Assembly (NCBI RefSeq): GCF_900114785.1
Contig: NZ_FOUG01000019.1
Coordinates: 1-64,000, forward strand
Reading direction: 5' to 3'
Origin: Variovorax sp. OV329
Lineage (GTDB): Bacteria; Pseudomonadota; Gammaproteobacteria; Burkholderiales; Burkholderiaceae_C
Length of the DNA: 64,000 bases
In this document: in pieces, positions 43,097 to 63,333 of the stretch
Layout: each line of letters begins with the position of its first letter
How positions within the stretch are numbered: position 1 is the first letter of the stretch
The notes under the pieces: generated by a model
What the model saw: only the letters and a program-made list of their open reading frames with translations
Databases searched by the model: none
Told to the model about the DNA's origin: nothing
Made by a program: the position numbers and the translations under genes

Positions 43097-43870
43097 TCAC
43101 TGAAGTTCCGGCGCGCCCTCGGCGCCCCAGCCGAGCACCACACGGCGGGTGCGGGCGCTCTTCTTCTCGATCTTGCTGACCACGACGGGGCCGATCTCGC
43201 GGGTGTTGGCCACGTGGGTGCCACCGCAGGGCTGGAAGTCGACGTGCGCCTGGGCGCCGTCGCCGCCGATCCGGATGGTACGCACCTGGCCGGTGCCGCG
43301 GGGCGGCTGCACGCTCATGCTCTTGACCAGGGCCGGATTGGCGTCGAGATCGGCGTCGCTGATCGCGCCCACCAGCAGCGGATGTGCTTCTGCCACCAGG
43401 CGGGCCAGGCCGGCGCTCAAGGCGTCCTTGTCCAGCGCATCGGTCATGTGGAAGTCCAGCCGCGCGTACTCCGGCGTGATGGAGCAGCCGTCCACCGGTT
43501 GGGGCACCAGGTGGCACAGCAGGTGGGTGGCCGTGTGGAAGCGCATCAGCTTGTGCCGGCGTTCCCAGTCGATGCGTGCGGTCACGGTGTCGCCAACCTG
43601 CAGTTTTGCCAGGGTGGATTCCTGCCCCGGGGCCGGCACGTGCAGGATGTCCGCCGTGGGCTTGCCTTCCGCGTCCTTGGCCTTGCGGGTGTCGGCGATG
43701 GCAACGGCCAGACCGTCGGGGCCGTCCAGACTGCCGGCGTCGCCGGCTTGGCCGCCGCCCAGGGGATAGAACACCGTGCGGTCCAGCACGATGCCGTTTT
43801 CGTCGATACGCAACACCTTCGCCGCGCATTCGCGCAGGTAGGCATCGGAACGGAACAGATCCTCGGTCAT
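43097..43870 (-). CDS. alaX: Alanyl-tRNA editing protein (AlaX family)
   Basis: 257 residues. It has the AlaRS-related editing site: FYPLGGGQAGDAG, the zinc motif MRFHTATHLLCHL (HxxxH), and QPCGGTHVANTREIG (Cys...His). It hydrolyses mischarged Ser- or Gly-tRNA(Ala) in trans. AlaX of this length corresponds to type II with part of the glycine-rich N-terminal region. It begins an operon with the DsbD-type gene and is divergent from the sugar dehydrogenase gene. Confidence 0.93.
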   Translation of the reverse strand: MTEDLFRSDAYLRECAAKVLRIDENGIVLDRTVFYPLGGGQAGDAGSLDGPDGLAVAIADTRKAKDAEGKPTADILHVPAPGQESTLAKLQVGDTVTARIDWERRHKLMRFHTATHLLCHLVPQPVDGCSITPEYARLDFHMTDALDKDALSAGLARLVAEAHPLLVGAISDADLDANPALVKSMSVQPPRGTGQVRTIRIGGDGAQAHVDFQPCGGTHVANTREIGPVVVSKIEKKSARTRRVVLGWGAEGAPELQ

Positions 43871-49512: not shown

Positions 49513-49860
49513 ATGAGCGCTGCCCCCGCGGACCATCCCTGTGTCGTCACCACCGCCCTCGGCACCGAGGACGAGGCCGAGTCGCTCGCGGGCGCGCTGG
49601 TGGAAGCCGGCCTGGCCGCCTGCGTGCAGGTCATGCAGGTTCGCAGCATCTACCGCTGGAAAGGCGAGGTGAAGCGCGAGCCCGAATGGGTGCTGCTGGT
49701 CAAGACCCGCAGCGCGCTCTTCGAGAAAATCGAGGCGCTGATCCGCGAGAGGCACAGCTACGAACTGCCCGAGATCCTGCAATTACCCGTCAGCGGCGGC
49801 TCGCCCGACTACCTGCGCTGGCTTCTCGAGGCCACCCCCGGCAAGCCTCCTCAGGCGTAG
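49513..49860 (+). CDS. cutA: Divalent-cation tolerance protein CutA
   Basis: 115 residues, the usual length. Core segments: VVTTALGTEDEAESLAGALV, EAGLAACVQVMQVRSIYRWK and GEVKREPEWVLLVKT, with HSYELPEILQLPVSGGSPDY near the end. CutA forms a very stable trimer and binds metals; its true function is unsettled. The stop overlaps the convergent histidine-phosphatase gene by 10 bp. Confidence 0.95.
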   Translation: MSAAPADHPCVVTTALGTEDEAESLAGALVEAGLAACVQVMQVRSIYRWKGEVKREPEWVLLVKTRSALFEKIEALIRERHSYELPEILQLPVSGGSPDYLRWLLEATPGKPPQA

Positions 49861-50525
49861 CTGACCCAGTCTTCCCATGCCGGACCGTCCAGGTGCGGCA
49901 GGGTGTTGTAGGTCAGCAGCATGTGGCGCTTGGGTGTGAAGGCGAATTCGGTCACCGCCGTGTTGCGGATGCGCAGGTTCAGCTCGATGGTCGTCTCCGG
50001 GCTGGTGCCCAGCACGTGCCCGACAGCCGTGCTGATCGGCCCGCCGCTGGAAACCACCAACACCTTCGCGCCGTGGTGGCGGTCGCGCACGTGGTCCAGG
50101 GCTGAAGTCACCCCCGTCAGGAAGTCCAGGTAGCTGGGCATGCCCGTTGGGGCGGTCCTGCCCTGCATCCAGGCGCCCAGGCCGTCGCGCAACAGGCGGA
50201 AGTGGTGCCTGTACATCTCCGGCGTGTCGGGCCTGGCCAGCTTTTCGGGGTGGATGGCGGCGATCACCGCCTCGCTGTCGTACTCGTTCAGGCCCGGCCA
50301 GGGCAGCACGTCGTCGCGCGTGAGGCCCAGGCCCTTGGCGATGCCCTCCCAGGTCTGGCGGTGGCGCTTGAGGGTGCCGGTGATGACAGCGTCGAACTGC
50401 ATGCCCCGCTCGCGCCAGTACTCGCCCAGGCGCTCGCTCTGGCGGCGGCCGAGGTCACTGAGCTGGTCGTAGTCGTCGGCGCCGAAGGAGGCCTGGCCGT
50501 GGCGCACGAGGTAGAGGGTTCCCAT
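49851..50525 (-). CDS. Histidine-phosphatase (phosphoglycerate-mutase-like) family protein
   Basis: 224 residues. The phosphorylated-histidine motif LYLVRHGQASFG is at residues 4-15, SDLGRRQSERLGEYW follows, and the second catalytic His is in KVLVVSSGGPI where the usual SHGG has become SSGG. The missing second His may mark a reduced or altered activity. The rest of the fold is normal. It ends 10 bp inside cutA. Confidence 0.85.
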   Translation of the reverse strand: MGTLYLVRHGQASFGADDYDQLSDLGRRQSERLGEYWRERGMQFDAVITGTLKRHRQTWEGIAKGLGLTRDDVLPWPGLNEYDSEAVIAAIHPEKLARPDTPEMYRHHFRLLRDGLGAWMQGRTAPTGMPSYLDFLTGVTSALDHVRDRHHGAKVLVVSSGGPISTAVGHVLGTSPETTIELNLRIRNTAVTEFAFTPKRHMLLTYNTLPHLDGPAWEDWVSYA

Positions 50526-50778: not shown

Positions 50779-53700
50779 ATGAACACTTCTTATCGCAGCA
50801 TTTATAGCCACGTTCTAGGTACTTGGGTCGCAGTTGCAGAAAACACGCGCGCGCATGGCAAGCGCGCCGGCTGCGCTGTCGGATTGACCGCAGCGCTGGC
50901 GCTGCTCGCCGCCACGCCGGCAGGCGCACAGAGCACGGTCTACTGGGATCAGAACGGCATTGCATCCGGGTCCGGTGCCGTGCCGACTGGGACTTGGAGC
51001 ACCAGCACCGGCGGTTGGACGGAATCCGCCACGGGCACCACCGGCACCTCCGCGCTCTGGGTAAACAACGGCTCACACGCAGTTTTCTCCGCTGGCGCCG
51101 ACGCAGTCGGCAACTACACCGTCACGGTGGACAACGTGTCGGCCGGTGCGGTCTTCTATCGGAACGCTGCACCGAGCAGCCAACTCACGCTCACCGGCAG
51201 CACGCTCACCCTGGCCGCCAACACCGGTATCCCCCAAGTCGATGTGGCCAGCGGAACCCTGCGCATCGACTCCGGCATTGCCGGCACCCAGGGCCTGCAA
51301 AAGACCGGGACCGGCACGCTGGTGCTTTCCGGGACCAACAACTACACCGGCGGCACAACGATTACCGGCGGAACGGTCGATGTTTCCAGCACCGCGAACA
51401 TCGGTGGCCCCACCGCCGGCCTCGCCTTCGACGGCGGCGCCCTGCGCCTGAACGCCAGCAACTTTGCATCCGACGGCACCGTGCAACTCACGGGCGCCGG
51501 CGTCATCGACGTCAACGCGACTCAGGACAACTGGCTGGGCGGGCGCATCACGGGCGCGGGCTCCCTGGCGCTCGTCAACACGGGTGCGGCGGTGTTCGAC
51601 GAGACCCTGCGCATCACGGTCGGCGGCAAGACCAACGACTACACCGGCGGCACGCGCATCGGCATCCAGGGCGTGCTGGACGCGCGCACCAACGCGCGGG
51701 TGTGGAACTCGGCCAGCGCCCTGGGCACGGGCCCGGTGAACATCTACTTCAACAGCGAGCTGAAGTTCTACGGCAGCGATTCCAGCGCCAGCGGCCTGAG
51801 CATCACCACCCACGAGTCCAGCAACCATCTGGGCACCAACTCGGGCGTCTACTTCGAAGGGGGGGCGAACGCCGGCAATGCCCACCTCACCAACCAGGCC
51901 CAGGGCAGCTACGTCATGTTCGACACCGGCACCAGCGCCGCGAACGCACGGATCGACAACTTCGGCGGCCGTGTCAACTTCTTCAACGGCAGCAGCGGCG
52001 GCAACGCCACCATCACCAACGGCGCGGTCACCGGCAGCCCGGCCATCGGCGGCATGGTCGACCTGCGCGATGCCGACATGTCCGGAACCACGGTGGTCAA
52101 CAACGCCGGCACGGTGTTCATCAGCAACGCGACGACCGGCGTGGCGATCGGCTCGCTCAGCGGCGCGGGCGCGGTGGCGCTGGGCAGCAAGCAGCTGACC
52201 GTGGGCGGGCTCGGCCAGAGCGCTGCCATCAGCGGCCGCATCTCGGACGCCGGCAGCGGCTACCTCGACATCTTCGGCGGTACCTACGTGATTCCGGCCG
52301 CCGCCGCCGGCGGCTCTCTGGTGAAGGTGGGCGCCGGCACGCTGACCCTGAGCGGCAGCAATGACTACACAGGCACCACGACCGTCAACGCCGGCACCCT
52401 GCGCGTCGAAGGCGACCAGTCGGCCGCCACCGGCACCACCACGGTCAACAGCGGCGGCACGCTCAGCAGCAGCGGCACCGGCGTGGTCGGTGGCGCGGTG
52501 AACGTGCTGGGCGGCGGCACGCTGGCCGGCAGCGGCACGGTGCTGGGCGCCGTCAGCATTGCCAGCGGCGGCCACCTGGCGCCGGGCAACAGTCCCGGCA
52601 CCCTCACCCTGGGCTCGCTGGCGCTGGTCCCGGGCTCGCAGATGGACTTCGAACTGGGCCAGGCCGGGGTGCCGGGCGGTCCGCTCAACGACCTGGTCAA
52701 CGTCACGGGCAACCTCACGCTGGCCGGAACGCTGAATGTGGCCACCCCGTCGGGCGGCACTTTCGGTCCGGGCCTGTACCGTCTCTTCAATTACGGCGGC
52801 ACCCTGGTCAACAACGGAGTGAGCTTCGGCACCGTGCCCGGCTCGGCCGCCGACCTGTACCTGCAGACCTCGGTCGCCCAGCAGGTCAACCTGGTCAACA
52901 GCACCGGCGTGCAGCTCAATTTCTGGGACGGCAGCAACCTGACCAGCATCAACAACGGCCAGGTCGACGGCGGCTCGGGCGTGATGCAGCTGGGCGCAGG
53001 CCTGGACCGCTGGACCACCGCCAGCGGCGCGATGAACGCGCCCTGGCTCAACGGCGGCTTCGCGATCTTCCAGGGCACGCCCGGCACGGTCACGGTGAGC
53101 AATGCCGGCGGCGCCGTCGAATTCAGCGGCGCGCAGTTCGCGGTGGACGGCTACACCCTGGCAGGTGCCCCCATCACCACCAACACGCCGGCCACGATCA
53201 TCCGCGTGGGCGACGGCACTGCGGCTGGCGCGGGCTACACGGCCACCGTCAGCGCGCAGGTCACCGGCAGCGGCGGCCTGGTCAAGCAGGACCTGGGCAC
53301 GCTCGTGCTGTCCGGCACCAACGACTACACCGGCGGCACGCACCTGGACGAAGGCACGCTGCTGGCCAACAACAACCAGGCACTGGGCACCGGCACGCTC
53401 ACCATCCAGGGCGGCACGCTGGGCAGCCAGACCCACGCCGTGCTGGCCAACGGCGTGGCGGTGGCCGGCGACTTCGCGGTCGCCAACGCTGGCGCGACGC
53501 CAGGCCTCACGCTGGCCGGCAACGTGGCGCTCGACGTCACGGCCAAGGTCACGCAGACGACCGCCGGCACGGTGGATTTCGCCGGCGTCATCAGCGGCGG
53601 CAGCAACGGCCTGACGCTGGACGCCACGGCGGCCGGCGCGCGCTACATCTATTCGGGCAGCGCTTCCAACACCTACACCGGCGCCACCACGGTGCAGGGC

Positions 53701-55617
53701 AATGCGGTTCTGGAACTGGCACGCACCGGCGGCGCCACGGCGGTCGCAGGCGACCTGAACGTCGCGGGGCAGGGCGCCGTGCTTCTCAACGGCAGCGAAC
53801 AGATCGCCAACACGGCGACCGTCACGCTCAACGGCAGCGGCCAGGGCGGCAACGACGCCCTGCAGTTCGCCGGCGCCGGCCTGACCGAAACCGTGGGCAC
53901 GCTCATGGGCAGCGGCAACGTCGGCCTGGCCGGCAGCAAGCTGGTGGTGGGCAGCGGCGACTTCGGCGGCCAGATCCGCGACAACGGCGCGGTCGGCGGC
54001 GGCATCGAGAAGGTCGGCAGCGGCGTGCTGCGCCTGTCGGGCGCCAACAGCTACAGCGGCGCCACCACCGTCACCGGCGGCACCCTGCAGGCCGGCGCGG
54101 CCAATGCCTTCAGCGCCAACTCGGCCCACAGCGTGGCCAGCGGCGCGGTGCTGGACACCGGCGGCTTCAGCCAGACGGTCGCGTCACTGAGCAACAGCGG
54201 CACCGTGTCGCTGCTGGGCAGCGCGCCGGGCTCCTCGCTCACCGTACGCGGCGCCTACGTGGGCAACAACGGCCTGCTGCGCGTGGGCACGGCCCTCAAC
54301 GCCACCGGTCCCTCGGACCGCCTGGTGATCGACGGCGCCACGGCCTCGGCGAGCGGCCGCACGAACGTGCAGGTCACCAACCTGGGCGGCCTGGGCGCGC
54401 TGACCACGGGCGCCGGCATCGAGGTGATCGCCGCCCGCAACGGCGCCACCACCACCGCGCAATCCACCCGCGACGCCTTCACCCTGGTGGGCGGCCACGT
54501 GGACGCCGGCGCCTACGAGTACCAACTGCAGGCCGCCGACCAGAACGGCGCCGGCGAAAGCTGGTACCTGCGCTCGCATTCCACGGCGGTCCCGCCCACC
54601 GACCCGTCGGTGAACCCCAACCAGGCGCCCGGCGTCTCGCCGCAAGAGACGCCCCGCTACCGCGCCGAGGTGCCGCTGTTCGCCGCCGTGCCCGCGCAGC
54701 TGCGCCAGGCCGACCTGGCGATGCTGGGCAACCTGCACCGCCGCATCGGCGACGACGATGCGCGCCTGCCGGGCGTGGACTTCGGCGAGCGCCGCGCCTG
54801 GGCGCGCCTGATCGGCGCCGACCTGGACGTCCGCCAGGAAGGCACCGTGTCGCAAGCCAGCAGCGGCCACCTGCAGGGCCTGCAGGCCGGCACCGACCTG
54901 TTCGCCATGCCCTCGAGCAACTGGCGCGCCGGCATCTACGTCGGCCAGATGGACGGCGATGCCGACGTGAGCGGCCTGGCGCGGGACGGCTGGGGCGCGG
55001 TCGGCAAGACCGACCTGCGCTCGCGCTACGTCGGCGCCTATGCCACCTACGCCGCGCCCACCGGCTTCTACGCCGACGCGGTGCTGCAGTACGGCCGCCA
55101 CGACTACACCCTGCATCCGGACGGCAACTCGCCGGTCACCGGCAAGGGCGATGGCGTCCAGGCCTCGATCGAAGTGGGCCAGTCCTTCCCGCTCGGCGGC
55201 GGCTGGTTCATCGAGCCGCAGCTGCAGCTGATCCACGAACAGCTGAACCTGGACGGCGTCAACCTGGCCGGCACGCAGGTCAACAGCGACGCCGACAGCG
55301 GCTGGATCGGCCGCGCCGGCGTGCGCATCAAGGGCGAGATGAGCACCGGCATCGGCCGGCTGCAGCCCTATGCCCGCGTGAACCTCTACCGCACCTCCAG
55401 CGGCCAGGACCTGGTGCGCTTCAGCACGGCGGCGGCCAGCACCACCGTCTCCAGCGCCACGGGTTCCACTTCGGCCGAGCTGGCGGGCGGCCTGACGCTG
55501 ACGCTGAACCAGAGCATCAGCGTCTATGGCGAACTGGGACGGCTGTTCGACGTGGGTGGCGACACCCGCGTGAAGTCCTCGGTCGAAGGCTCGGCCGGGC
55601 TGCGGGTGCGCTGGTAA
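50779..55617 (+). CDS. Large type V autotransporter with extended signal peptide and PATR repeats
   Basis: 1612 residues from an ATG with AAGGA seven bases upstream. The N-terminus MNTSYRSIYSHVLGTWVAVA is an extended signal-peptide region (ESPR) followed by a hydrophobic core ending AATPAGAQ. The passenger is a long Gly/Thr/Asn-rich beta-helix with five passenger-associated repeats near residues 172, 514, 834, 955 and 1075 (for example KTGTGTLVLSGTNNYTGGTT). The barrel starts near residue 1337 (RRAWARLIGADLDVRQEGTV) and ends in LRVRW with an aromatic last residue. No protease or RGD motif noticed. Likely a surface adhesin or biofilm factor; the function of the passenger is not determinable. 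Confidence 0.93.
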   Translation: MNTSYRSIYSHVLGTWVAVAENTRAHGKRAGCAVGLTAALALLAATPAGAQSTVYWDQNGIASGSGAVPTGTWSTSTGGWTESATGTTGTSALWVNNGSHAVFSAGADAVGNYTVTVDNVSAGAVFYRNAAPSSQLTLTGSTLTLAANTGIPQVDVASGTLRIDSGIAGTQGLQKTGTGTLVLSGTNNYTGGTTITGGTVDVSSTANIGGPTAGLAFDGGALRLNASNFASDGTVQLTGAGVIDVNATQDNWLGGRITGAGSLALVNTGAAVFDETLRITVGGKTNDYTGGTRIGIQGVLDARTNARVWNSASALGTGPVNIYFNSELKFYGSDSSASGLSITTHESSNHLGTNSGVYFEGGANAGNAHLTNQAQGSYVMFDTGTSAANARIDNFGGRVNFFNGSSGGNATITNGAVTGSPAIGGMVDLRDADMSGTTVVNNAGTVFISNATTGVAIGSLSGAGAVALGSKQLTVGGLGQSAAISGRISDAGSGYLDIFGGTYVIPAAAAGGSLVKVGAGTLTLSGSNDYTGTTTVNAGTLRVEGDQSAATGTTTVNSGGTLSSSGTGVVGGAVNVLGGGTLAGSGTVLGAVSIASGGHLAPGNSPGTLTLGSLALVPGSQMDFELGQAGVPGGPLNDLVNVTGNLTLAGTLNVATPSGGTFGPGLYRLFNYGGTLVNNGVSFGTVPGSAADLYLQTSVAQQVNLVNSTGVQLNFWDGSNLTSINNGQVDGGSGVMQLGAGLDRWTTASGAMNAPWLNGGFAIFQGTPGTVTVSNAGGAVEFSGAQFAVDGYTLAGAPITTNTPATIIRVGDGTAAGAGYTATVSAQVTGSGGLVKQDLGTLVLSGTNDYTGGTHLDEGTLLANNNQALGTGTLTIQGGTLGSQTHAVLANGVAVAGDFAVANAGATPGLTLAGNVALDVTAKVTQTTAGTVDFAGVISGGSNGLTLDATAAGARYIYSGSASNTYTGATTVQGNAVLELARTGGATAVAGDLNVAGQGAVLLNGSEQIANTATVTLNGSGQGGNDALQFAGAGLTETVGTLMGSGNVGLAGSKLVVGSGDFGGQIRDNGAVGGGIEKVGSGVLRLSGANSYSGATTVTGGTLQAGAANAFSANSAHSVASGAVLDTGGFSQTVASLSNSGTVSLLGSAPGSSLTVRGAYVGNNGLLRVGTALNATGPSDRLVIDGATASASGRTNVQVTNLGGLGALTTGAGIEVIAARNGATTTAQSTRDAFTLVGGHVDAGAYEYQLQAADQNGAGESWYLRSHSTAVPPTDPSVNPNQAPGVSPQETPRYRAEVPLFAAVPAQLRQADLAMLGNLHRRIGDDDARLPGVDFGERRAWARLIGADLDVRQEGTVSQASSGHLQGLQAGTDLFAMPSSNWRAGIYVGQMDGDADVSGLARDGWGAVGKTDLRSRYVGAYATYAAPTGFYADAVLQYGRHDYTLHPDGNSPVTGKGDGVQASIEVGQSFPLGGGWFIEPQLQLIHEQLNLDGVNLAGTQVNSDADSGWIGRAGVRIKGEMSTGIGRLQPYARVNLYRTSSGQDLVRFSTAAASTTVSSATGSTSAELAGGLTLTLNQSISVYGELGRLFDVGGDTRVKSSVEGSAGLRVRW

Positions 55618-55634: not shown

Positions 55635-56345
55635 TCAGTGGCCCTGCGACTCCAGCGTGACGAGGCCGCGCGGCGTGCGCAGCGTGGCCACCAGGTCGGG
55701 TGGCCCGCGCTGCACGTCCACGCCAGCCAGCCCGATGCGGCCGTAGGCCTCGCGCAGCAGTTCCGCGCGTGGATGGCGAGCGGCCAGCGACACCAGTTCC
55801 AGCCCGCAGACCGGCATGCTGTCGGTGGGATGCACCGCGCCCCATTCGATGAGCGTCGGCAGCGCGCCGTACATCAGGCGCTGGCCGTCATCGCGCACGG
55901 TGATGCGCCATTCGAGCCGGCCAGCCGGCGTGTCGCGCGCAGCCTCGATCACCGTGCCGCGGTCGATGCCCGGCGCACCGCCGGCTAGGGCCTGCACGGC
56001 ACGCTGCGCATCCCCCACGCGGGCAACGAAATGGATCAGGCGCGGGCCCTCGCGCTGCAGGGTGGCACGCAGCGACTCGTCATCCAGGTCGAACCAGCGC
56101 TTGAGCCCCTTGGCCCGCGTCGGCGGCTTGCCGCGCTCGATGGCGATCAGTTCCAGGTAGGTGCGCGCAAAGCCCTGGCCCGAGCACAGCAGCAGCCGGT
56201 TGTGCGTGCCCATGAGCGGGTGCGTACCGCCCGGCCCGGGCAGCAGGCCCAGCGTGGCTTCGCACCACGTCACGCATTCATCGAGCGTTCGGCCGGCCAC
56301 CACCAGGTGGTCGACTTCGGCATGCGGCGTGGCGGGCTTGGACAT
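55635..56345 (-). CDS. VOC-superfamily protein (glyoxalase-like domain)
   Basis: 236 residues from the ATG at 56345. EVDHLVVAGRTLDECVTWCE at the start, then GGTHPLMGTHNRLLLCSGQG and RTYLELIAIERG are typical of the glyoxalase-like domain with one divergent half. No clear full metal triad, although His13, His52-type and Glu residues are present. Last gene of the seven-gene operon, 35 bp after the threonine-dehydratase-like gene. Confidence 0.82.
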   Translation of the reverse strand: MSKPATPHAEVDHLVVAGRTLDECVTWCEATLGLLPGPGGTHPLMGTHNRLLLCSGQGFARTYLELIAIERGKPPTRAKGLKRWFDLDDESLRATLQREGPRLIHFVARVGDAQRAVQALAGGAPGIDRGTVIEAARDTPAGRLEWRITVRDDGQRLMYGALPTLIEWGAVHPTDSMPVCGLELVSLAARHPRAELLREAYGRIGLAGVDVQRGPPDLVATLRTPRGLVTLESQGH

Positions 56346-56380
56346 GGCGGCGATTCTGGCAGCGCCACGCCCGCCGCGGA

Positions 56381-57355
56381 CTAGCTGGCCTGCAGAACCT
56401 TGGCGAACACCGGGGCATCGACGTTGCCGCCGCTCACGGTGATGCCCACGGTCTTGCCGGCCCATCGTGCGCGCTGCTGCAACGCGCCGGCCAGGGCGGC
56501 GGCGCCTGCGCCCTCGGCCAGGTTGTGGGTGTCGCGGTAGAGGGCGCGCATGGCGTGGGCGACTTCCTCGTCGGTGACGGCGATCACTTCCTCCGCCTCG
56601 CTGCGCACGATCTCCAGCGCCTGCGCATCCGGCGAGCGGCAGGCCATGCCGTCGGCCAGCGCGGTGTTGGCTGGCGCCCGCACCACCTGGCCGCTGCGCC
56701 AGGATTCGAGGTAGGCCGGCGCGTGCGCCGACACCACGCCCACCAACTTCGTCGACATCACGCCGCAATGCGCGCGTGCCGCCGCCGCGGCGGCAAAGCC
56801 TGAGCCCATGCCGATGGGGACGAAGACCACGTCCGGCACCGCGTCCGCCTTCTTCAGGTGCTCGAAGAACTCCACCCAGTAGGTGCTCACGCCGCGCACC
56901 AGTTCGCGCGCGAAGGAGGGAATCATGTGCAGGCCTTCGTCGGCCGCGCGCTGGCGCGCATGGTCGGCCGAGGCCTGGAAGTCCTCGCCGTGCTCCACCA
57001 GCTCCACGCCCAGGGCGCGCATGGCCGCGTTCTTCTCCACCGAGTTGCCGTGCGGCACCACGATGGTGGCGGTTAGACCTTCGCGCGCCGCCGCCAGGCC
57101 GATGGACTGGCCGTGGTTGCCGCGGGTGGCGCTGATCACGTGGCGCAGCGCAGGTTGTTCGCGGCGCAGCGTCTGCAGGTAGGTCAGGCCGCCGCGCATC
57201 TTGAAGGCACCGGCTGGCGTGTGGTTCTCGTGCTTGACCCACACCCGGCTGCCCAGGCGCTGCGCCAGCAGGGGCCAGGCGTACTGCGGCGTGGGCGGCA
57301 TCACCGAATAGACGGTGCGCTGGGCGTCTGCGATCTCCTCGGGCGTGAACCGCAT
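56381..57355 (-). CDS. PLP-dependent threonine/serine dehydratase-like enzyme
   Basis: 324 residues, the short catalytic-only form without a regulatory ACT domain. AAGGAA precedes the ATG. The PLP lysine is K52 in AGAFKMRGGLTYL; TRGNHGQSIGLAA binds the substrate carboxylate; VPIGMGSGFAAAAAA is the phosphate-binding glycine loop with one glycine replaced; TVSGGNVDAP ends it. It deaminates a hydroxy-amino acid to a 2-oxoacid. Sixth gene of the MocR-divergent operon, 22 bp after phzF. Confidence 0.9.
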   Translation of the reverse strand: MRFTPEEIADAQRTVYSVMPPTPQYAWPLLAQRLGSRVWVKHENHTPAGAFKMRGGLTYLQTLRREQPALRHVISATRGNHGQSIGLAAAREGLTATIVVPHGNSVEKNAAMRALGVELVEHGEDFQASADHARQRAADEGLHMIPSFARELVRGVSTYWVEFFEHLKKADAVPDVVFVPIGMGSGFAAAAAARAHCGVMSTKLVGVVSAHAPAYLESWRSGQVVRAPANTALADGMACRSPDAQALEIVRSEAEEVIAVTDEEVAHAMRALYRDTHNLAEGAGAAALAGALQQRARWAGKTVGITVSGGNVDAPVFAKVLQAS

Positions 57356-57377
57356 GGGCGCTTCCTTGTTCCTGAAA

Positions 57378-58343
57378 TCAGAGCGTGGCGTGGCCGTCGA
57401 TGCAGATGACCGAGGCGCCGCCCACCCACACCTGGCCGCTTTCGTCGCGCTCGATGCGCACCCGGCCGTCGCGCCCCAGGCACTGGCCCTGCGCCGCCAC
57501 GTAGGACAGCGGCATGCGGTCGTCGGCGATGAGCCACTGCGCCAGGCTGGCATTGAGGCTGCCGGTGACCGGGTCTTCGTCGATGCCGGTGGCCGCGGCG
57601 AATGCGCGCACTTCCAGGTCGGCGGTGCAGGCCGGCGGCAGCGCATGCTGCTTGCCGCTGCGGCCGGCGCCGCCGGCGAAGGCGCGGGCCTCGCGGTTGG
57701 AGCGGCCGATGAGGGCGGGCGCTTCGTCCAGCGTGGCGGTCGGCAGGCCCGCCACGCCGATCTTCAGGCCGATGTCCTTGAGCACGCGGTGGTCCGGCGA
57801 CAGGGCCAGCACCGTGTCGGCGTCTTCCAGCAGCAGGCCCAGCCAGGTGGTGCCGTTGTCCAGCATCTGCGCAGCGATCACCTGGTGCGCCTTCAGGCCG
57901 AGCGCGGCCGCCACCTTGGCCAGCACCGTGGGGCTGGGCGAACTGCGGCGCAACGGCGGCGCCTCGAAGGCCAGGCTGTTCGCCTCGCCCGCATTGCGGC
58001 GGATGCGCACCAGGCCGACCTTGCATTGCTGCACGACAAGGTTGCGATTCTTCGGCGCGTTGCCGGCGGCCAGCCAGGCGTGGCAGGTGCCCAGCGTCGG
58101 ATGGCCGGCAAAGCCCAGCTCGCCGCCGGGCGTGAAGATGCGCACCTGGTAGTCGGCGCCGGCCTCGGTGGCCGGCAGCACGAAGGTGGTTTCCGACAGG
58201 TGGGTCCAGCGCGCGAAGCGCTGCATCTCCTCGTCGGACAGGCCGCTGCCGTCCAACACCACGGCCAGCGGGTTGCCGAAAAAGGGCGTGTCGGTGAAGA
58301 CGTCGAGCTGCGTGAAGGGGCGGGAGCGGGCCATGGCCGTCAT
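57378..58343 (-). CDS. PhzF-family isomerase
   Basis: 321 residues; the ATG at 58343 overlaps the GST stop (ATGA). PhzF signatures: TQLDVFTDTPFFGNPLAVVL at the start with the first half, THLSETTFVLP with the catalytic Glu, and TGIDEDPVTGSLNASLAQWL in the second half. The prototype isomerises a dihydro-hydroxyanthranilate, but most homologues have unknown epimerase/isomerase roles in amino-acid metabolism. No other phenazine gene is present. Confidence 0.92.
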   Translation of the reverse strand: MTAMARSRPFTQLDVFTDTPFFGNPLAVVLDGSGLSDEEMQRFARWTHLSETTFVLPATEAGADYQVRIFTPGGELGFAGHPTLGTCHAWLAAGNAPKNRNLVVQQCKVGLVRIRRNAGEANSLAFEAPPLRRSSPSPTVLAKVAAALGLKAHQVIAAQMLDNGTTWLGLLLEDADTVLALSPDHRVLKDIGLKIGVAGLPTATLDEAPALIGRSNREARAFAGGAGRSGKQHALPPACTADLEVRAFAAATGIDEDPVTGSLNASLAQWLIADDRMPLSYVAAQGQCLGRDGRVRIERDESGQVWVGGASVICIDGHATL

Positions 58344-58981
58344 TCCAGTGTGAGGTCGAGCACGCCCAGCGCGCCCGAGCGCGTGCGCAGCTGGCCGAAC
58401 CAGCGCTCGACGTTCGGCCACGAGGGCCGGGTGTACTCGGTGGGCGGCAGGCCGAACCAGCGATGCGCCTCGCAGCCCAGCGGGATGTCGGCCATGGTGA
58501 AGCTGTCGCCCAGCATGTACTCGTTCTTCGCAAGGTGGCGGTCCAGCAGTGCGAAAAGCGGCTCGGTCGCGGCGATCGACTGCGCCAGCACCGCGGCGTC
58601 GCGCTTGTCGGCCGGCGTGCGCACCAGCTGGATGAAGCCGGGGCTGCCGGCGCGGTTCAGCGTGGTCTGCTGCCAGTCCATCCACCGCTCGGCGTCGAAG
58701 CGCGCGGGCAGCTCGTTGGGATAGAGCCCGCCGGGCGCGTACCTGGCGCTCAGGTAGCGCACGATCACGTTCGATTCCCACAGCTCCACCCGCTGCGCGC
58801 CTTCGCCGTCCTCGATGGCCGGCACCAGCGAGTTGGGGTTGATCTGGCGGTACTCGTCGGTCTGCACCACGCCGAACTTGCCGCCAGCCTCGGTGCGCTG
58901 GAAGCTCAGTCCGAGCTCCTGCGCGCACCAGACCACCTTGCGGACGTTGATCGAACTGATACGGCCCCAGATCTTCAGCAT
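58340..58981 (-). CDS. Glutathione S-transferase family protein
   Basis: 213 residues. N-terminal thioredoxin-like domain: MLKIWGRISSINVRKVVWCA, with PNSLVPAIEDGEG (cis-Pro) and ELWESNVIVRYLSARYAPGG for glutathione; C-terminal helical domain with EYMLGDSFTMADIPLGCEAH. Beta-like or theta-like class. Fourth gene of the operon, 40 bp after the aminotransferase gene; suggests detoxification of a reactive product. Confidence 0.92.
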   Translation of the reverse strand: MLKIWGRISSINVRKVVWCAQELGLSFQRTEAGGKFGVVQTDEYRQINPNSLVPAIEDGEGAQRVELWESNVIVRYLSARYAPGGLYPNELPARFDAERWMDWQQTTLNRAGSPGFIQLVRTPADKRDAAVLAQSIAATEPLFALLDRHLAKNEYMLGDSFTMADIPLGCEAHRWFGLPPTEYTRPSWPNVERWFGQLRTRSGALGVLDLTLE

Positions 58982-59021
58982 GGCGTGCGTTTCCTCGTGT
59001 GTTGGATGAGTGTGTGGCGGC

Positions 59022-60233
59022 TCAAGGCGTGGCCGCCAGCAATTGTTCCGTCTTTGCGGCCACCACGTGGGCCAGCTGCTCGCGCACGGCACCGGCCAGG
59101 GCGGCAATGGCCTTGTCGATCTCTTCCTCGCTTGCGGTGACGAAGGACAGGCGCATGGTGCGCGCATCGCCTTCGCCGGCGTAGAAAGGCAGGCCTGGCA
59201 CGAAGGCCACGCCGCGGTCCACCGCCTTGGGCAGCAAAGCGACCGTGTCCATGCCTTCGGGCATTCGCAGCCACAGGAACATGCCGCCGGCGGGAACATT
59301 GAACTCCACGTCCAGGCCCTTCATCTCGCGGCGCAGCGCGGCCACCATGGCATCGCGCTGGCCCTTGTAGCGGGCGCGGATGGTGGGCACGTGGCGCTCC
59401 AGGAAGCCGTCCTTCATCACCTCGCACACCATGCGCTGGTTGAAGATGGGGCTGTGCAGGTCGGCCGCCTGCTTGGCCTGAAGCAGCTTGGGGTAGATGG
59501 ACTTGGGCGCCACCATGAAGCCCAGGCGCAGGCCGGGCGCGAGCACCTTGGAGAAGGAGCCCAGGTAGATGCAGCCCTCGGGGTTGCGCGCCGTCAGCGG
59601 CAGCGGAGGGGCCTCGTCGAACCACAGCTCGCCGTAGGGGTTGTCTTCCACGATGGGCAGGCCGGCCTTCTTCGCGGCGGCGATCACCGCCACGCGGCGT
59701 GCTTCGGTCATGGTGCGGCCGGTGGGGTTCTGGAAGTTGGGCAGCAGGTAGGCGAAGCGCGCGCCCTCGGCCTTGGCGGCCAGGTCCTCGGAAATCACGC
59801 CTTCGGCATCGCTGGCCACCGAGACGGCCTGCGGCTCCATCGGCGAGAAGGCCTGCAGCGCGCCCAGGTAGGTGGGCGTTTCCACCAGCACGCGGCTGCC
59901 CGGGTCCAGCAGCACCTTGGCGATCAGGTCCAGGCCCTGCTGCGAGCCGGTGGTGATCAGCACCTGGTCGGGGTCCACTTTCCAGGGCAGCATCTTCGCG
60001 ACCGCCTCGCGCAGCGGCGCATGGCCTTCGCTGGCCGCGTATTGAAGGGCGGCCTCGCCGTCGTTGTGCAGGACCGCGGCGCAGGCCTCGGCGAAGGCCT
60101 TCACCGGGAAGGTCTTGGGCGAGGGCAGGCCGCCGGCCAGGCTGATGATGCCGGGGCGCTCGGTGACCTTGAGGATTTCGCGGATCACCGAGGGGTTCAT
60201 CTTTTCGGCGCGTGCGGCGAGTTTCCAGTTCAT
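59022..60233 (-). CDS. PLP-dependent aminotransferase (class I/II, 2-aminoadipate-type)
   Basis: 403 residues. ERPGIISLAGGLPSPKTFPV near the start and LQYAASEGHAPLREAV are typical of the LysN/ARO8-like group; TTGSQQGLDLIAKVLL, LPNFQNPTGRTM, and the Schiff-base lysine K229 in GSFSKVLAPGLRLGF follow. It transfers the amino group of an amino acid such as 2-aminoadipate, leucine or an aromatic to 2-oxoglutarate. Overlaps the DMT gene stop by four bases. Confidence 0.93.
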   Translation of the reverse strand: MNWKLAARAEKMNPSVIREILKVTERPGIISLAGGLPSPKTFPVKAFAEACAAVLHNDGEAALQYAASEGHAPLREAVAKMLPWKVDPDQVLITTGSQQGLDLIAKVLLDPGSRVLVETPTYLGALQAFSPMEPQAVSVASDAEGVISEDLAAKAEGARFAYLLPNFQNPTGRTMTEARRVAVIAAAKKAGLPIVEDNPYGELWFDEAPPLPLTARNPEGCIYLGSFSKVLAPGLRLGFMVAPKSIYPKLLQAKQAADLHSPIFNQRMVCEVMKDGFLERHVPTIRARYKGQRDAMVAALRREMKGLDVEFNVPAGGMFLWLRMPEGMDTVALLPKAVDRGVAFVPGLPFYAGEGDARTMRLSFVTASEEEIDKAIAALAGAVREQLAHVVAAKTEQLLAATP

Positions 60234-61216
60234 GGCTTTTCCTTGGGGGTTGCGGTCGTCGGGGATTCGGATGGCAGCGATGGGCGCGCCTGGGACAGCT
60301 TCTTGCCGGCCACCACGGTGGCCACCACGGCGCCGGCGAAGCCGATGGTGAGCATGTCGATGGATTCTCCCAGCAGCGGCAAGGCCGCCAGGATCGAGAG
60401 GAAGGGCTGCAGCAACTGCGTCTGGCTCACCCGCAGCGCGCCGCCCAGGGCCAGGCCTCGATACCAGGCGAAGAAGCCCATCCACATGGAGAAGACCCCC
60501 ACGTAGCAGAAGGCCAGCCAGGCCGAGGTGGCCACCGGCTGCTGCGGCCACAGCCAGATCGCGCCAGGCAGGGTGAAGGGCAGTGCAATCACGCAGACCC
60601 AGCAGATCACCCGTTCCGCGCCCAACTCGGGCGTGACCTGAGCACCGTAGATGTAGCCGAAGGAAGCGGCCAGCACGGCGGCCACCAGCAGCACGTCGGC
60701 CCACTCGAAGAAGGAAGCACCCGCGCCGCCCTGGTGGGCGCGGATGAGCGAGAAGGCCACCACCAGCGCGCTCCCCGCCACCGCGCACAGCCAGAAGCCC
60801 AGGCGGGCGCGCTGGTGCAGCACCCAGGCCGCGACGGCGGCGGTGGCCAGCGGCAGCAGCGCCGTGACGACGGCCGCATGGCTGGCGCTGACCACGCGCA
60901 GGGCGTAGGCCAGCAGCAGCGGGTAGCCCAGCGCATTGCCCAGCACCGCCAGCGACAGCGGCTTCCAGTGATGGGACCTGGGCAGCGGCGAGCGCGTCGC
61001 CAGCAGGAACGCGAGCGAAAGAACGCCCGCCAGCGCCGCGCGGCCCAGCGTCACGAACCAGGGCGAGAGCTGGGGTGCGGCCTGCGTGCCGGTGGCCAGT
61101 CGCGTCATCGGCAGGGTGAGCGCGAAGATCGCGACGCCCAGCACGCCCAGCCACATGCCTAGCGTTTCATCGCGCAGGCCGGCGCTGCGCCGGGGGCTCA
61201 CGGTGGTGCCGCTCAT
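60230..61216 (-). CDS. EamA/DMT-family exporter
   Basis: 328 residues, ten helices in two EamA halves (GVLGVAIFALTLPMTRLATG and WADVLLVAAVLAASFGYIYG). Its position between LysE and aminotransferase genes with four-base overlaps on both sides suggests an amino-acid or related exporter. Related genes are frequent targets of divergent MocR regulators. Confidence 0.9.
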   Translation of the reverse strand: MSGTTVSPRRSAGLRDETLGMWLGVLGVAIFALTLPMTRLATGTQAAPQLSPWFVTLGRAALAGVLSLAFLLATRSPLPRSHHWKPLSLAVLGNALGYPLLLAYALRVVSASHAAVVTALLPLATAAVAAWVLHQRARLGFWLCAVAGSALVVAFSLIRAHQGGAGASFFEWADVLLVAAVLAASFGYIYGAQVTPELGAERVICWVCVIALPFTLPGAIWLWPQQPVATSAWLAFCYVGVFSMWMGFFAWYRGLALGGALRVSQTQLLQPFLSILAALPLLGESIDMLTIGFAGAVVATVVAGKKLSQARPSLPSESPTTATPKEKP

Positions 61217-61812
61217 ACGCGTGCCATCCAGTAGGCGGTGAGCACGAGCACGAGCGCCATCGCGCGGTTGAACCACAGCAGGCGCCGGCCCTGCGCCAGC
61301 CAGTTGCGCAGCAGGGCGCCGGCCAGGGCGTAGGTGAAGTTGCTGGTGAAGGCGTACATCAGCATCACCGGCGCCACGATGACGAAGCGGTGCAGCGCAT
61401 CGGGCTGCCCGACGATCCAGCCGGCCGCGATGGTGAGGGCCAGCAGCCAGGCCTTGATGTTGAGGAACTGCAGCGCCACGCCCTGCCAGAAGCCCACCCG
61501 CAGCGGCGCGTCCTTGGCCGAAGCGAGCGAGCCGCTGCCCGCCAGCTTCCAGGCCAGGTAGAGCAGGTAGGCGATGCCCACGGCCTGTACGGCGATGCGC
61601 AGCGCCGGCGCCGCCATCACCAGGGCGCCGACGCCGGCGGCGCACAGGGCCAGCAGCAGCGTCCAGCCCACGGGCACCGCGAAGATGAAGCGCATGGCCC
61701 GCGGCAGCCCGCCGTTGGCGGCCAGGGTGGTCGACAAGGTGGTGTTGGGGCCGGGCGAGAAACTCATCGCCGTGGCCAGCACCAGCAGCGCGGTGAATTC
61801 TTGCCAGTTCAT
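61213..61812 (-). CDS. LysE-family amino-acid exporter
   Basis: 199 residues from the ATG at 61812; upstream extension to 61863 is not conserved. Six helices and the RhtB/LysE signature AMSFSPGPNTTLSTTLAANG near residue 20, FWQGVALQFLNIKAWLLAL in the middle. Exports amino acids such as threonine, homoserine or lysine. First gene of the operon; its promoter lies in the 99-bp gap shared with the MocR gene. Confidence 0.9.
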   Translation of the reverse strand: MNWQEFTALLVLATAMSFSPGPNTTLSTTLAANGGLPRAMRFIFAVPVGWTLLLALCAAGVGALVMAAPALRIAVQAVGIAYLLYLAWKLAGSGSLASAKDAPLRVGFWQGVALQFLNIKAWLLALTIAAGWIVGQPDALHRFVIVAPVMLMYAFTSNFTYALAGALLRNWLAQGRRLLWFNRAMALVLVLTAYWMARV

Positions 61813-61911
61813 TGGGCACACTTTAAACTTGGTGACCATTACAGTACCAGTACAGACGGGCACACAACGTCCCGAGCTGTATCGGTTCTCCGCTAGACAC
61901 AGATTGGCGCC
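61813..61911. promoter_or_regulatory. Divergent promoter of the LysE operon and the MocR gene
   Basis: 99-bp gap, less GC-rich than its surroundings. The segment CAGTACCAGTACAG repeats CAGTAC with a 7-bp shift and is itself partly symmetric. Closely spaced direct repeats are the usual kind of MocR-family operator. No confident -10/-35 pair is assigned. Confidence 0.4.
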
Positions 61912-63333
61912 ATGCTGACCCGCACCTCCGGCCTATCGCTCACCGACCAGCTTTCCGCCCGCTTCGCCGAGCGCATCCGCACGCGCCTGCTGCCGCCGGG
62001 CGCACGGCTGCCTTCGGTGCGCGAATGCGCCCGCCAGCAGGGCGTGAGCCCGCACACCGTGGTGGCAGCTTACGACCAGCTGCTGGCCCAGGGCCTGGTG
62101 GAGGCACGTCGGCAACGCGGCTTCTTCGTGCGCGACGTCGCGCCGCCGCAGGCCGCAGCGGCCACCGTCCCGCGCGCCGGCGGCATGCCTGCGGCGCCGG
62201 TGGCGGCCGATGCCAGCTCCCTCATCCGCGGCATGTTCCACCGCCAGAGCGACAAGCCGCAGCCGGGCATGGGCGTGTTCCCGCCCGACTGGATGGAATC
62301 GACCTTCATGCCGGCCGCGGTGCGCCGCGTCACCAGCGGGCCGATGCTGCAGGAACTGTCGCTGCAGTACGGCGACCCGGCCGGCGACCTGGCGCTGCGC
62401 CAGAGCCTGTCGCAGAAGCTCATGGGCATCAACGTCCCGGCAGGGCCCGACCAGATCATCACCACCGTGGGCGCCACGCATGCGCTGGACATCGTCAGCC
62501 GCACGCTGCTGCGGCCCGGCGACCCGGTGATGGTGGAGGAGCCGGGCTGGGCCATCGAGTTCGCGCGGCTGGAATCGCTGGGCATGCGCATCCTGCCGGT
62601 GCCCCGCCGCGCCGACGGGCCGGACCTGGAGGTAATGGCGCGCTACTGCGAGGCCGGCGAGGGCCACCGCCCCAAGCTCTTCGTGAGTGTCAGCGTGCTG
62701 CACAACCCCACCGGCTACAGCCTCACGCCGGGCAGCGCGCACCGGGTGCTGCAACTGGCCAACCAGCACGACTTCCACATCGTCGAGGACGATACCTACA
62801 GCCACCTGGCGCCGGACCACGCCACGCGCCTGAGCGCCATGGACGGTTTGCAGCGCACGATCTACGTCGGCGGTTTCGCCAAGATCCTGGCGCCCAACTG
62901 GCGCATCGGCTTCATGGCCGCGCCGCCGCAGGTGTTCGGGCGCCTGCTGGAAACCAAGCTGATGGCCACGCTCACCACGCCCGCCATCTTCGAACGGGCG
63001 CTGGCCTGGTGCATCGACCAGGGGCAGCTGCGCCGGCATTGCGAGCGCATCCGCGCGCGGCTGGATGCGGCGCGTGCCCGCACCGTCAAGCTGGCGCTGG
63101 CGGCCGGCTGCTCCTTCGCGGCCGAGCCCGCGGGCCTGTTCGGCTGGGTGGAGACCGGCATTGACACCGACGCCATGACCCAGCGCATGCTGGACGAGGG
63201 CTTCCTCATCGCGCCGGGCTCGCTCTTCCATGCGCGCCGCCCGCCCAGCACCCTGATGCGGGTGAACTTCGCCACCGCGCAGGACGCGGCCTTCTGGAAG
63301 ACCTTCGCGCGGGTGCGCGACGAGCTGCGCTAG
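61912..63333 (+). CDS. MocR-family regulator (GntR winged helix fused to an aminotransferase fold)
   Basis: 473 residues. Winged helix at residues about 8-75 (LSLTDQLSARFAERIRTRLL, LPSVRECARQQGVSPHTVVA, RRQRGFFVRD), a linker rich in Ala/Pro, and an aminotransferase-like domain with LQYGDPAGDLALRQSL, HNPTGYSLTP, and K324 in GGFAKILAPNWRIGF that would bind PLP. MocR proteins sense an amino acid or vitamin B6 through PLP. It is divergent from the LysE-to-VOC operon and is its likely regulator. Confidence 0.93.
   Translation: MLTRTSGLSLTDQLSARFAERIRTRLLPPGARLPSVRECARQQGVSPHTVVAAYDQLLAQGLVEARRQRGFFVRDVAPPQAAAATVPRAGGMPAAPVAADASSLIRGMFHRQSDKPQPGMGVFPPDWMESTFMPAAVRRVTSGPMLQELSLQYGDPAGDLALRQSLSQKLMGINVPAGPDQIITTVGATHALDIVSRTLLRPGDPVMVEEPGWAIEFARLESLGMRILPVPRRADGPDLEVMARYCEAGEGHRPKLFVSVSVLHNPTGYSLTPGSAHRVLQLANQHDFHIVEDDTYSHLAPDHATRLSAMDGLQRTIYVGGFAKILAPNWRIGFMAAPPQVFGRLLETKLMATLTTPAIFERALAWCIDQGQLRRHCERIRARLDAARARTVKLALAAGCSFAAEPAGLFGWVETGIDTDAMTQRMLDEGFLIAPGSLFHARRPPSTLMRVNFATAQDAAFWKTFARVRDELR

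Follow-up and report, generated by a model that had tools for sequence, protein, structure and literature searches.

Regulons of MocR-type regulators that contain DMT, LysE, aminotransferase, PhzF and GloA genes were predicted in 2016 and termed PdxQ (Suvorova & Rodionov, PMC5320631). The same article distinguishes six PdxQ orthologous groups, reports RidA in five MocR regulogs and names threonine dehydratase among MocR-regulated enzymes. We compared these systems with a MocR locus in the window, the whole 64,000-nucleotide stretch of DNA analyzed here. Like the PdxQ and function-unknown MocR regulons of that article, the locus combines MocR with DMT and LysE/YggA proteins, a PLP-dependent aminotransferase, a GloA-family lyase and a COG384 protein. 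The gene set that characterizes PdxQ (DMT/LysE, aminotransferase, GloA-type and COG384) was thus present, with the VOC protein and its Glyoxalase_3 domain taken as GloA-type. However, the published PdxQ regulons hold pdxO, pdxO2 or pdxH (PMC5320631), and the operon here is without them. Because such MocR regulons were predicted in 2016, this kind of operon is already known. The earlier note on this DNA did not recognize the full set as a described pathway. The general MocR, DMT/LysE, aminotransferase, PhzF and GloA set is in print (PMC5320631); on the link to AlaX, a search of the accessible papers pairing AlaX with MocR found none. The words 'AlaX', 'tRNA' and 'glutathione' are absent from the main text of PMC5320631.

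Two tRNA-editing systems are also relevant. Free-standing AlaXp proteins hydrolyze Ser- and Gly-tRNAAla (PMC11295145); the window encodes a protein of the same family with both zinc-type motifs. The editing protein CtdA is encoded beside a canavanine-degradation operon in rhizosphere bacteria (PMC10018355). A standalone tRNA-editing gene there adjoins an analogue-degradation operon, much as AlaX in some relatives of our locus adjoins an operon with a putative role of this kind. CtdA is a B3/4-domain protein acting on tRNA-Arg, and its analogue is canavanine, whereas here AlaX would act on tRNA-Ala and the analogue is putative.

Layout and protein families of the locus

All eight genes of the earlier note, seven in one direction with short gaps or four-base overlaps and a MocR gene opposite, were found where it had placed them (Table 1), and the layout of the seven bears out a single operon-like run. 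Three gene pairs overlap by 4 bases (LysE/DMT, DMT/aminotransferase and GST/PhzF, the last only if PhzF starts at the ATG at 58343), and the remaining gaps measure 40, 22 and 35 bp.

Table 1. Features of the MocR locus in window coordinates
Feature	Position	Strand	Remarks
VOC protein with Glyoxalase_3 domain	55635..56345	-	236 aa; PF13468, E 6.3e-32; last gene of the operon here
PRK06110-family PALP/threonine-dehydratase-like protein (TD), PLP fold-type II dehydratase/deaminase	56381..57355	-	324 aa
PhzF-family isomerase	57378..58343	-	321 aa (ATG 58343) or 318 aa (ATG 58334); PF02567
Glutathione S-transferase family protein (GST)	58340..58981	-	213 aa; PF02798/PF13410
Aminotransferase, fold-type I, LysN / 2-aminoadipate-kynurenine type	59022..60233	-	403 aa; overlaps DMT by 4 bases
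EamA/DMT-family exporter	60230..61216	-	328 aa; overlaps LysE by 4 bases; PF00892, E 3.7e-28
LysE/RhtB-family exporter	61213..61812	-	199 aa if started at ATG 61812, although upstream starts are possible; leads the operon
Three-box operator, MocR/LysE gap	61836..61885	-	inverted box CCGATACAG (61885-61877), 21 bp, direct repeat CTGTACTGG-TA-CTGTAATGG (61855-61836)
MocR-type regulator, GntR wHTH plus aminotransferase-fold domain	61912..63333	+	473 aa; divergent from the seven-gene run
AlaX-type (alanyl-tRNA editing) protein	43097..43870	-	257 aa; outside the operon, ~12 kb off

The regulator has the architecture of the MocR subfamily of GntR regulators (PF00392 at 11-73, PF00155 at 151-458). 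Its best NCBIfam model was PdxR, at 220 bits under a cut-off of 320. We observed the PLP-type lysine K324, together with D293 and N265, in 61/61 aligned rows each, and K324 is the predicted, conserved PLP-binding lysine. The LysE domain was present in the first gene (PF01810, E 5e-12), and the nearest NCBIfam model was a cysteine/O-acetylserine transporter (75 bits, far under its cut-off of 193). A domain search of the seven genes revealed no uptake-type transporter family.

Solved PDB relatives exist for TD, the aminotransferase, GST and PhzF, and a PDB search with VOC gave no match at E <= 0.001. The aminotransferase is closest in sequence to PDB 2egy (E 1.9e-99), a likeness to LysN and alpha-aminoadipate-kynurenine aminotransferases that places it in a family and implies no substrate; its catalytic-type lysine K229 was found in 73/73 rows. 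GST matched 6nv6 (E 3.8e-47). PhzF scored 206 bits against TIGR00654 (cut-off 76), with E51, H81 and D257 (321-aa numbering), which we take to be the Glu/His/Asp catalytic-site residues of the family, in 69/69 rows. TD matched NF004771 (PRK06110) at 496 bits, over the curated cut-off of 317, the 'threonine' substrate being annotation only. K52 and R78, the latter an arginine that is invariant in the loop at the PLP site, were present in 103/103 rows having a letter there. We dropped a substrate call from the nearest characterized enzyme, as the best PDB match of TD is from a different dehydratase family (E 3e-35). Phenylserine dehydratase may be a relative of TD, as a lead only. The window AlaX carries the zinc-type motifs HxxxH (HTATH at 112) and CxxxH (CGGTH at 215); with 172 bits against its best NCBIfam model, AlaXM (NF040865; cut-off 300), it appears to be AlaX-type and was not filed as AlaXM. 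AlaX, LysE and MocR all scored under the cut-offs of their nearest NCBIfam equivalogs.

A common operator and a conserved gene cluster

Repeated operator boxes before target genes are a trait of the MocR subfamily, and here we observed three boxes with 21-bp and 2-bp spacers (consensus CCRATACAG, 21 bp, CTGTAYYGG-N2-CTGTAATGG). The operator regex matched 50/64 intergenic stretches, and the inverted box lay exactly 21 bp away in 40/50; the inverted-box regex is loose enough for chance matches, and the argument rests on the fixed spacing. The operator was recovered in 38/39 held-out MocR fronts, each above the 99th percentile of mononucleotide shuffles (no MocR was called at locus L223 in this test). 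The window genome has one site with 0 mismatches (61836-61855), the next best having 2. Each of 12 same-genus genomes had exactly one site at <=1 mismatch, always in the MocR/LysE gap of the cluster. A search of the window's own genome for second regulon targets gave 13 sites at <=3 mismatches vs 34 for a reversed control, and these distant sites are thus noise. Separate regulation of the seven genes, which the earlier note had named as evidence against its reading, is not what we found; the operator common to relatives and the one close site per genome instead argue for its proposal of MocR control, as predicted from sequence.

Poor co-conservation, the other refuting outcome the note had named, was likewise not observed. 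Within a family sample of 150 genomes, of which 111 had a MocR match at E <= 1e-110, we scored co-location within 12 kb where both genes lay on one contig. Co-location was near total: MocR-TD in 42/42 genomes, TD-PhzF in 45/45 and MocR-PhzF in 95/96. Fisher tests of co-location ignore kinship and were not used as evidence. As gene order is also kept across relatives, the grouping exceeds chance. The order survey that the note had proposed showed order kept in same-genus genomes and, though with gains and losses, also in other Burkholderiales. The order of VOC and TD varies: VOC mostly precedes the dehydratase where both occur, and the window shares the reverse order with its nearest relatives (L119 and L039/L120, the latter two probably one genome).

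A long stretch of the cluster was recovered from 31 of 36 same-genus genomes; TD was present in 24 of these (L139 being cut before MocR at a contig end) and absent from 7 (L181 keeping a short TD remnant). The other 5 comprised one partial stretch, two genomes on short contigs that were searched for the aminotransferase only (G010, G022) and two with a lone TD within 18 kb and MocR outside the search (G019, G021).

Operon variants and the place of AlaX

We called 102 MocR runs and left out 11 with fewer than three genes. The resulting 91 include some genomes twice (L039/L120, L044/L130), and loci were taken from 40 of the 68 genomes having MocR without TD. Genes were called by a codon-score script, which misplaced some starts (L039, L129) and missed some genes (VOC in L123). 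TD was present in 52 of the 91 runs, GST in 49 and VOC in 57. These counts contradict the seven genes as a fixed pathway; the operon is modular, and TD is often absent. Most runs hold one to three LysE-type genes and a DMT protein, and some relatives add an N-acetyltransferase, a racemase, RidA or DJ-1.

RidA belongs to an enamine/imine hydrolase family. It was found in 6/6 runs with TD first, all six without GST and VOC. On a quick MocR tree (67/91 rows, 24 surplus close relatives dropped, with a long-branch warning), five of the six were placed, all in a single branch, and the remaining one (L067) was absent from the tree. RidA occurred without PhzF in 5 runs and with it in 1, and PhzF without RidA in 82. 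Because RidA-carrying runs mostly lack PhzF, a bold reading is that PhzF may provide the pathway's enamine/imine tautomerase activity.

AlaX lay within 2.5 kb of PhzF in 23/28 genomes without TD vs 1/22 with TD (both genes on one contig). Three genomes with AlaX and two PhzF copies (G063, G136, G206) have both copies more than 2.5 kb away, and the counts stand. Such a position would resemble the CtdA arrangement, but in the window AlaX lies about 12 kb away. AlaX as such occurred in 25/47 genomes with TD vs 32/103 without, and is thus not commoner where TD is missing. This rules out AlaX as a genome-level replacement of TD; only the place of AlaX alternates, not its presence in the genome. MocR was also present in 55/57 AlaX genomes (kinship ignored). 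The genus of the window keeps AlaX outside the operon, at a distance of about 3-17 kb in 14/15 genomes and with no close operator match, so its link to the operon there is synteny only. Under a strict rule, 29/91 runs had neither TD nor AlaX, in at least two cases (L123, L255) through truncation of the run by that rule. Many independent TD/AlaX swaps were considered and rejected, as the MocR tree needs at least only 2 changes for TD vs AlaX; the count is 17 once 'none' and 'both' are states.

Proposed function and alternatives

These data suggest that a conserved soil-bacterium cluster, with one MocR and one operator, probably both exports and degrades an unwanted amino acid. We lean, narrowly, towards a MocR-controlled operon for defence against, or overflow of, an unwanted free amino acid, and infer its inducer, direction of regulation and transport, substrates and toxicity as follows. 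MocR would act on the single three-box operator, with binding of the amino acid, or of its aldimine with the regulator's PLP, as the switch. The compound would be exported by LysE and EamA/DMT, its amino group removed or altered by the aminotransferase and the PRK06110 dehydratase, and the reactive products handled by PhzF, GST and VOC. In some relatives without an operon dehydratase, AlaX beside PhzF would strip the compound from mischarged tRNA-Ala. Such editing would make a small serine-like compound or beta-substituted alanine the most likely class, and AlaX in the clusters of some relatives hints at a target amino acid that corrupts protein synthesis. Variants with AlaX, RidA, a racemase or extra exporters lend weight to the earlier suggestion of relief from a toxic amino acid or analogue; toxicity and the enzyme activities stay presumptive.

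A more specific version, which we hold only tentatively, is a Burkholderiales-wide MocR mistranslation-defence operon that would couple export, degradation or modification and tRNA-Ala trans-editing, with a serine-like non-protein amino acid as the target. The last slot of the operon would hold either an amino-acid-destroying PRK06110 dehydratase or a tRNA-proofreading AlaX, many TD genomes keeping AlaX elsewhere, beyond the operator's reach. The genome counts above, in which AlaX is no more frequent where TD is missing, make it slightly less likely.

LysE and DMT families are mostly known as exporters. Their presence in most runs, and the lack of any uptake-type transporter family in the seven-gene set, argue against a nutritional operon for growth on an unusual amino acid, comparable to the ectoine, taurine and GABA MocR regulons. 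Nutrition also needs no tRNA editing protein, and we consider this the least probable account, although the aminotransferase and dehydratase would supply keto acids to metabolism and other MocR regulons are catabolic (PMC5320631). Another alternative to foreign-analogue defence is an overflow valve for a normal metabolite such as serine, cysteine, O-acetylserine or 2-aminoacrylate. The cysteine/O-acetylserine exporter model nearest to LysE, RidA in the TD-first variants and the clearance of serine from tRNA-Ala by AlaXp (PMC11295145) are consistent with such a valve, and the same picture would be expected if ordinary serine, glycine or cysteine overflowed. Yet the LysE match is far under the model's cut-off, and PhzF, the racemase and the N-acetyltransferase lack an obvious role in serine/cysteine overflow; the valve seems rather improbable.

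A PLP-homeostasis regulon of the PdxQ type, with MocR as the sensor of PLP or a B6 vitamer and the exporters and enzymes restraining PLP or its adducts, is unlikely, if less so than the valve. MocR regulons that combine DMT/LysE, aminotransferase, GloA and COG384 (PhzF) were so assigned and a PLP role suggested (PMC5320631), and PdxR is the best, sub-cut-off model of this MocR. Against this, the pdx genes of the published regulons (PMC5320631) are missing from this operon, a second close operator match is lacking in the genome, and variants with AlaX, RidA, racemase or dehydratase would suit amino acids better.

If amino-acid export and defence is the true function, it would provide testable functions for PhzF-like proteins not involved in phenazine synthesis and for PRK06110 'threonine dehydratases' with the invariant PLP-site-loop arginine, both of them orphan families. 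The operator offers a direct route to the inducer of a regulator common in the family. Bacterial AlaX would also gain a suggested setting, the response to an amino acid mischarged on tRNA-Ala. Among alphaproteobacterial loci drawn from the best 80 of 573 relatives, TD adjoins AlaX in 7/18, with PhzF next in 5 of those.

Layout and conservation of the operon

The genome around the window is 6.3 Mb, and among the best 80 of 573 loci its closest named relatives were Variovorax and other Comamonadaceae. Pfam and NCBIfam assigned the operon genes to the LysE, EamA (DMT exporter), class I/II aminotransferase, GST, PhzF and PALP families, and Pfam alone gave Glyoxalase_3 (the VOC protein). The PALP gene is a PRK06110 "threonine dehydratase" (TD; NCBIfam score above cut-off), and the aminotransferase most resembles enzymes of the LysN/kynurenine-aminoadipate kind (2egy, E 1.9e-99). 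We observed four-base overlaps at three junctions and gaps of 22-40 bp at the others; the genes are packed in one direction opposite MocR, as the earlier note describes.

Features of the window around the operon
Feature	Position	Orientation	Remark
AlaX (alanyl-tRNA editing family)	43097-43870	minus	about 12 kb from the operon
Histidine-phosphatase-family gene, SixA/GpmB-like	49851-50525		below cut-offs of all models listed
Large autotransporter-like ORF	50884-55617	plus	~1577 aa; by eye, with repeats and a barrel at the C terminus
Seven-gene operon	61812 down to 55635	leftward	opposite MocR
Predicted operator site	61836-61855		exact match
MocR gene	61912-63333	plus	opposite orientation to the operon

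We searched 36 other genomes of the genus. A long stretch of the cluster was read in 31, of which 24 carry TD at the end or close to it and 7 lack it; the others held a partial stretch (1), short contigs (2) or a lone TD (2). One genome otherwise without TD (G003) carries a short TD-like remnant (L181:12388-12492, 74% identity), which suggests recent TD loss there. Beyond the genus (among the best 80 of 573 loci), the order MocR / LysE-DMT-aminotransferase-(..)-GST-PhzF-VOC-TD recurs in Hydrogenophaga, Ramlibacter, Paracidovorax and others, some genes being gained or lost; Polaromonas keeps it without GST, and Piscinibacter without LysE and GST.

Across 150 genomes of the family (126 genera), MocR was matched in 111 (E <= 1e-110), TD in 47 (E cut-off 1e-80) and PhzF in 116 (E cut-off 1e-30). 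Poor co-conservation, named in the earlier note as a result that would refute its proposal, was not what we observed: where both genes lay on one contig, they were at most 12 kb apart in 42/42 genomes for MocR-TD, 45/45 for TD-PhzF and 95/96 for MocR-PhzF. Such co-location is far beyond chance.

A predicted operator in the MocR/LysE gap

Comparison of the gaps between MocR and the first gene yielded a predicted three-box operator, CCRATACAG, 21 bp, CTGTAYYGG-N2-CTGTAATGG. The pattern matched 50 of the 64 intergenic stretches from which it was itself derived, and several misses reflect script-called gene starts that shorten the stretch. Of the 50 matched sites, 40 had the inverted box at a spacing of exactly 21 bp and 2 at 22 bp. 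We then applied a weight matrix built from the 50 sites to 40 further loci from other genera. Of 39 held-out loci with a MocR call, 38 scored above the 99th percentile of mononucleotide shuffles; the spacer to the inverted box measured 21 bp in 32 loci and 22 bp in 3.

The window's genome contains one exact site (second-best, 2 mismatches), and all 12 further same-genus genomes contain exactly one site at <=1 mismatch, each inside the cluster's MocR/LysE gap. MocR therefore looks like a local, dedicated regulator, and the predicted sites support the proposal of an operon under one regulator. The operon is real and conserved and looks singly regulated.

Modular content and the AlaX link

We counted 91 of 102 MocR runs (operon-like gene strings beside MocR) that had >=3 genes, some of them redundant. 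The runs held the aminotransferase (90), DMT (85), PhzF (83), LysE (62), VOC (57), TD (52) and GST (49). A second LysE type occurred in 30 and a third in 27; accessory genes, verified with Pfam/NCBIfam on chosen members, were DJ-1 (16), AlaX (11), Asp/Glu-racemase (10) and RidA (6). Six TD-first runs of the Massilia, Duganella and Herbaspirillum type had RidA in 6/6 and PhzF in 1/6. The operon is thus modular in composition: the conserved run stands, but a fixed set of seven genes does not. By eye, two clusters hold extra class-V-aminotransferase-like genes (L247:4482-5645, L072:12397-13620).

The autotransporter-like ORF sits between the operon and the histidine-phosphatase gene and looks like an insertion. 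The phosphatase gene directly follows the operon in the near relatives L119 and L120, and in many relatives comes after it in the same orientation (16/91 runs by a strict rule); it could be a lost eighth member.

AlaX was matched in 57 of the 150 family genomes, 55 of which also had MocR. The runs held TD alone in 51 cases, AlaX alone in 10, both in 1 and neither in 29. With AlaX and PhzF on one contig, AlaX lay <=2.5 kb from PhzF in 23/28 genomes without TD vs 1/22 with TD. AlaX was nevertheless present in 25/47 genomes with TD vs 32/103 without, so its place alternates with TD and its presence does not. These counts, and an exchange that needs only 2 changes on the MocR tree, speak against a simple TD/AlaX swap. 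In Alphaproteobacteria (assigned by record title, among the best 80 of 573 loci), AlaX followed a TD orthologue in 7/18 loci; PhzF came next in 5 of these and preceded TD in one more. TD-AlaX-PhzF sets occur there in L110, L111, L112 and L118; GNAT is next in L111, and L110 has a divergent, distant MocR (27% identity). Editing of tRNA-Ala is genomically linked to the operon in relatives. In 14/15 genomes of the genus, about 3-17 kb separate AlaX from the cluster, which may be plain synteny.

Proposed role and precedents

The operon combines amino-acid exporter families with amino-acid enzymes whose catalytic-type residues are intact, in an operon-like run with one operator and one regulator bearing a PLP-type lysine. 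Among aligned rows, we found conservation of MocR K324 (61/61), aminotransferase K229 (73/73), PhzF E51/H81/D257 (69/69) and TD K52 (103/103 rows with a letter there). MocR would use its PLP to sense an amino acid. The operon products would export this amino acid, transaminate or deaminate it and clear the reactive products, and AlaX, where it is in the operon, would repair mischarged tRNA-Ala. TD, AlaX, RidA and the cysteine/O-acetylserine-type LysE would best fit a serine-like or beta-substituted alanine compound, each strand being weak alone. We offer this function as a well-founded hypothesis, not a finding. Competing explanations are a role in PLP homeostasis, in nutrition or in the overflow of normal serine-family metabolites. 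An EamA-type exporter is also encoded in the gene cluster of FthB, a protein for fluorothreonine.

The PdxQ MocR regulons of Suvorova and Rodionov (PMC5320631) hold DMT/LysE transporters, aminotransferases and GloA-type and PhzF-related proteins in common with the window operon, whereas their pdxO/pdxH are absent from it. The terms "AlaX", "tRNA" and "glutathione" do not occur in that paper's main text. In the non-subscription literature searched, it was the only paper on MocR, PhzF and threonine dehydratase, no paper joined AlaX with MocR, and the present gene set had no apparent description. MocR regulons of exporters and PLP enzymes are already known as a type; the AlaX connection adds interest. 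The closest working precedent for an editing gene beside an operon is CtdA beside the canavanine operon (PMC10018355), FthB is named for fluorothreonine, and AlaXp hydrolyses Ser- and Gly-tRNAAla (both PMC11295145).

TD R78 is invariant (103/103 rows) and sits in a "TRGNHGQS" loop, at the place of which Salmonella TdcB (2gn0) has "SAGNH"; this residue may be relevant to which substrate PRK06110 enzymes use.
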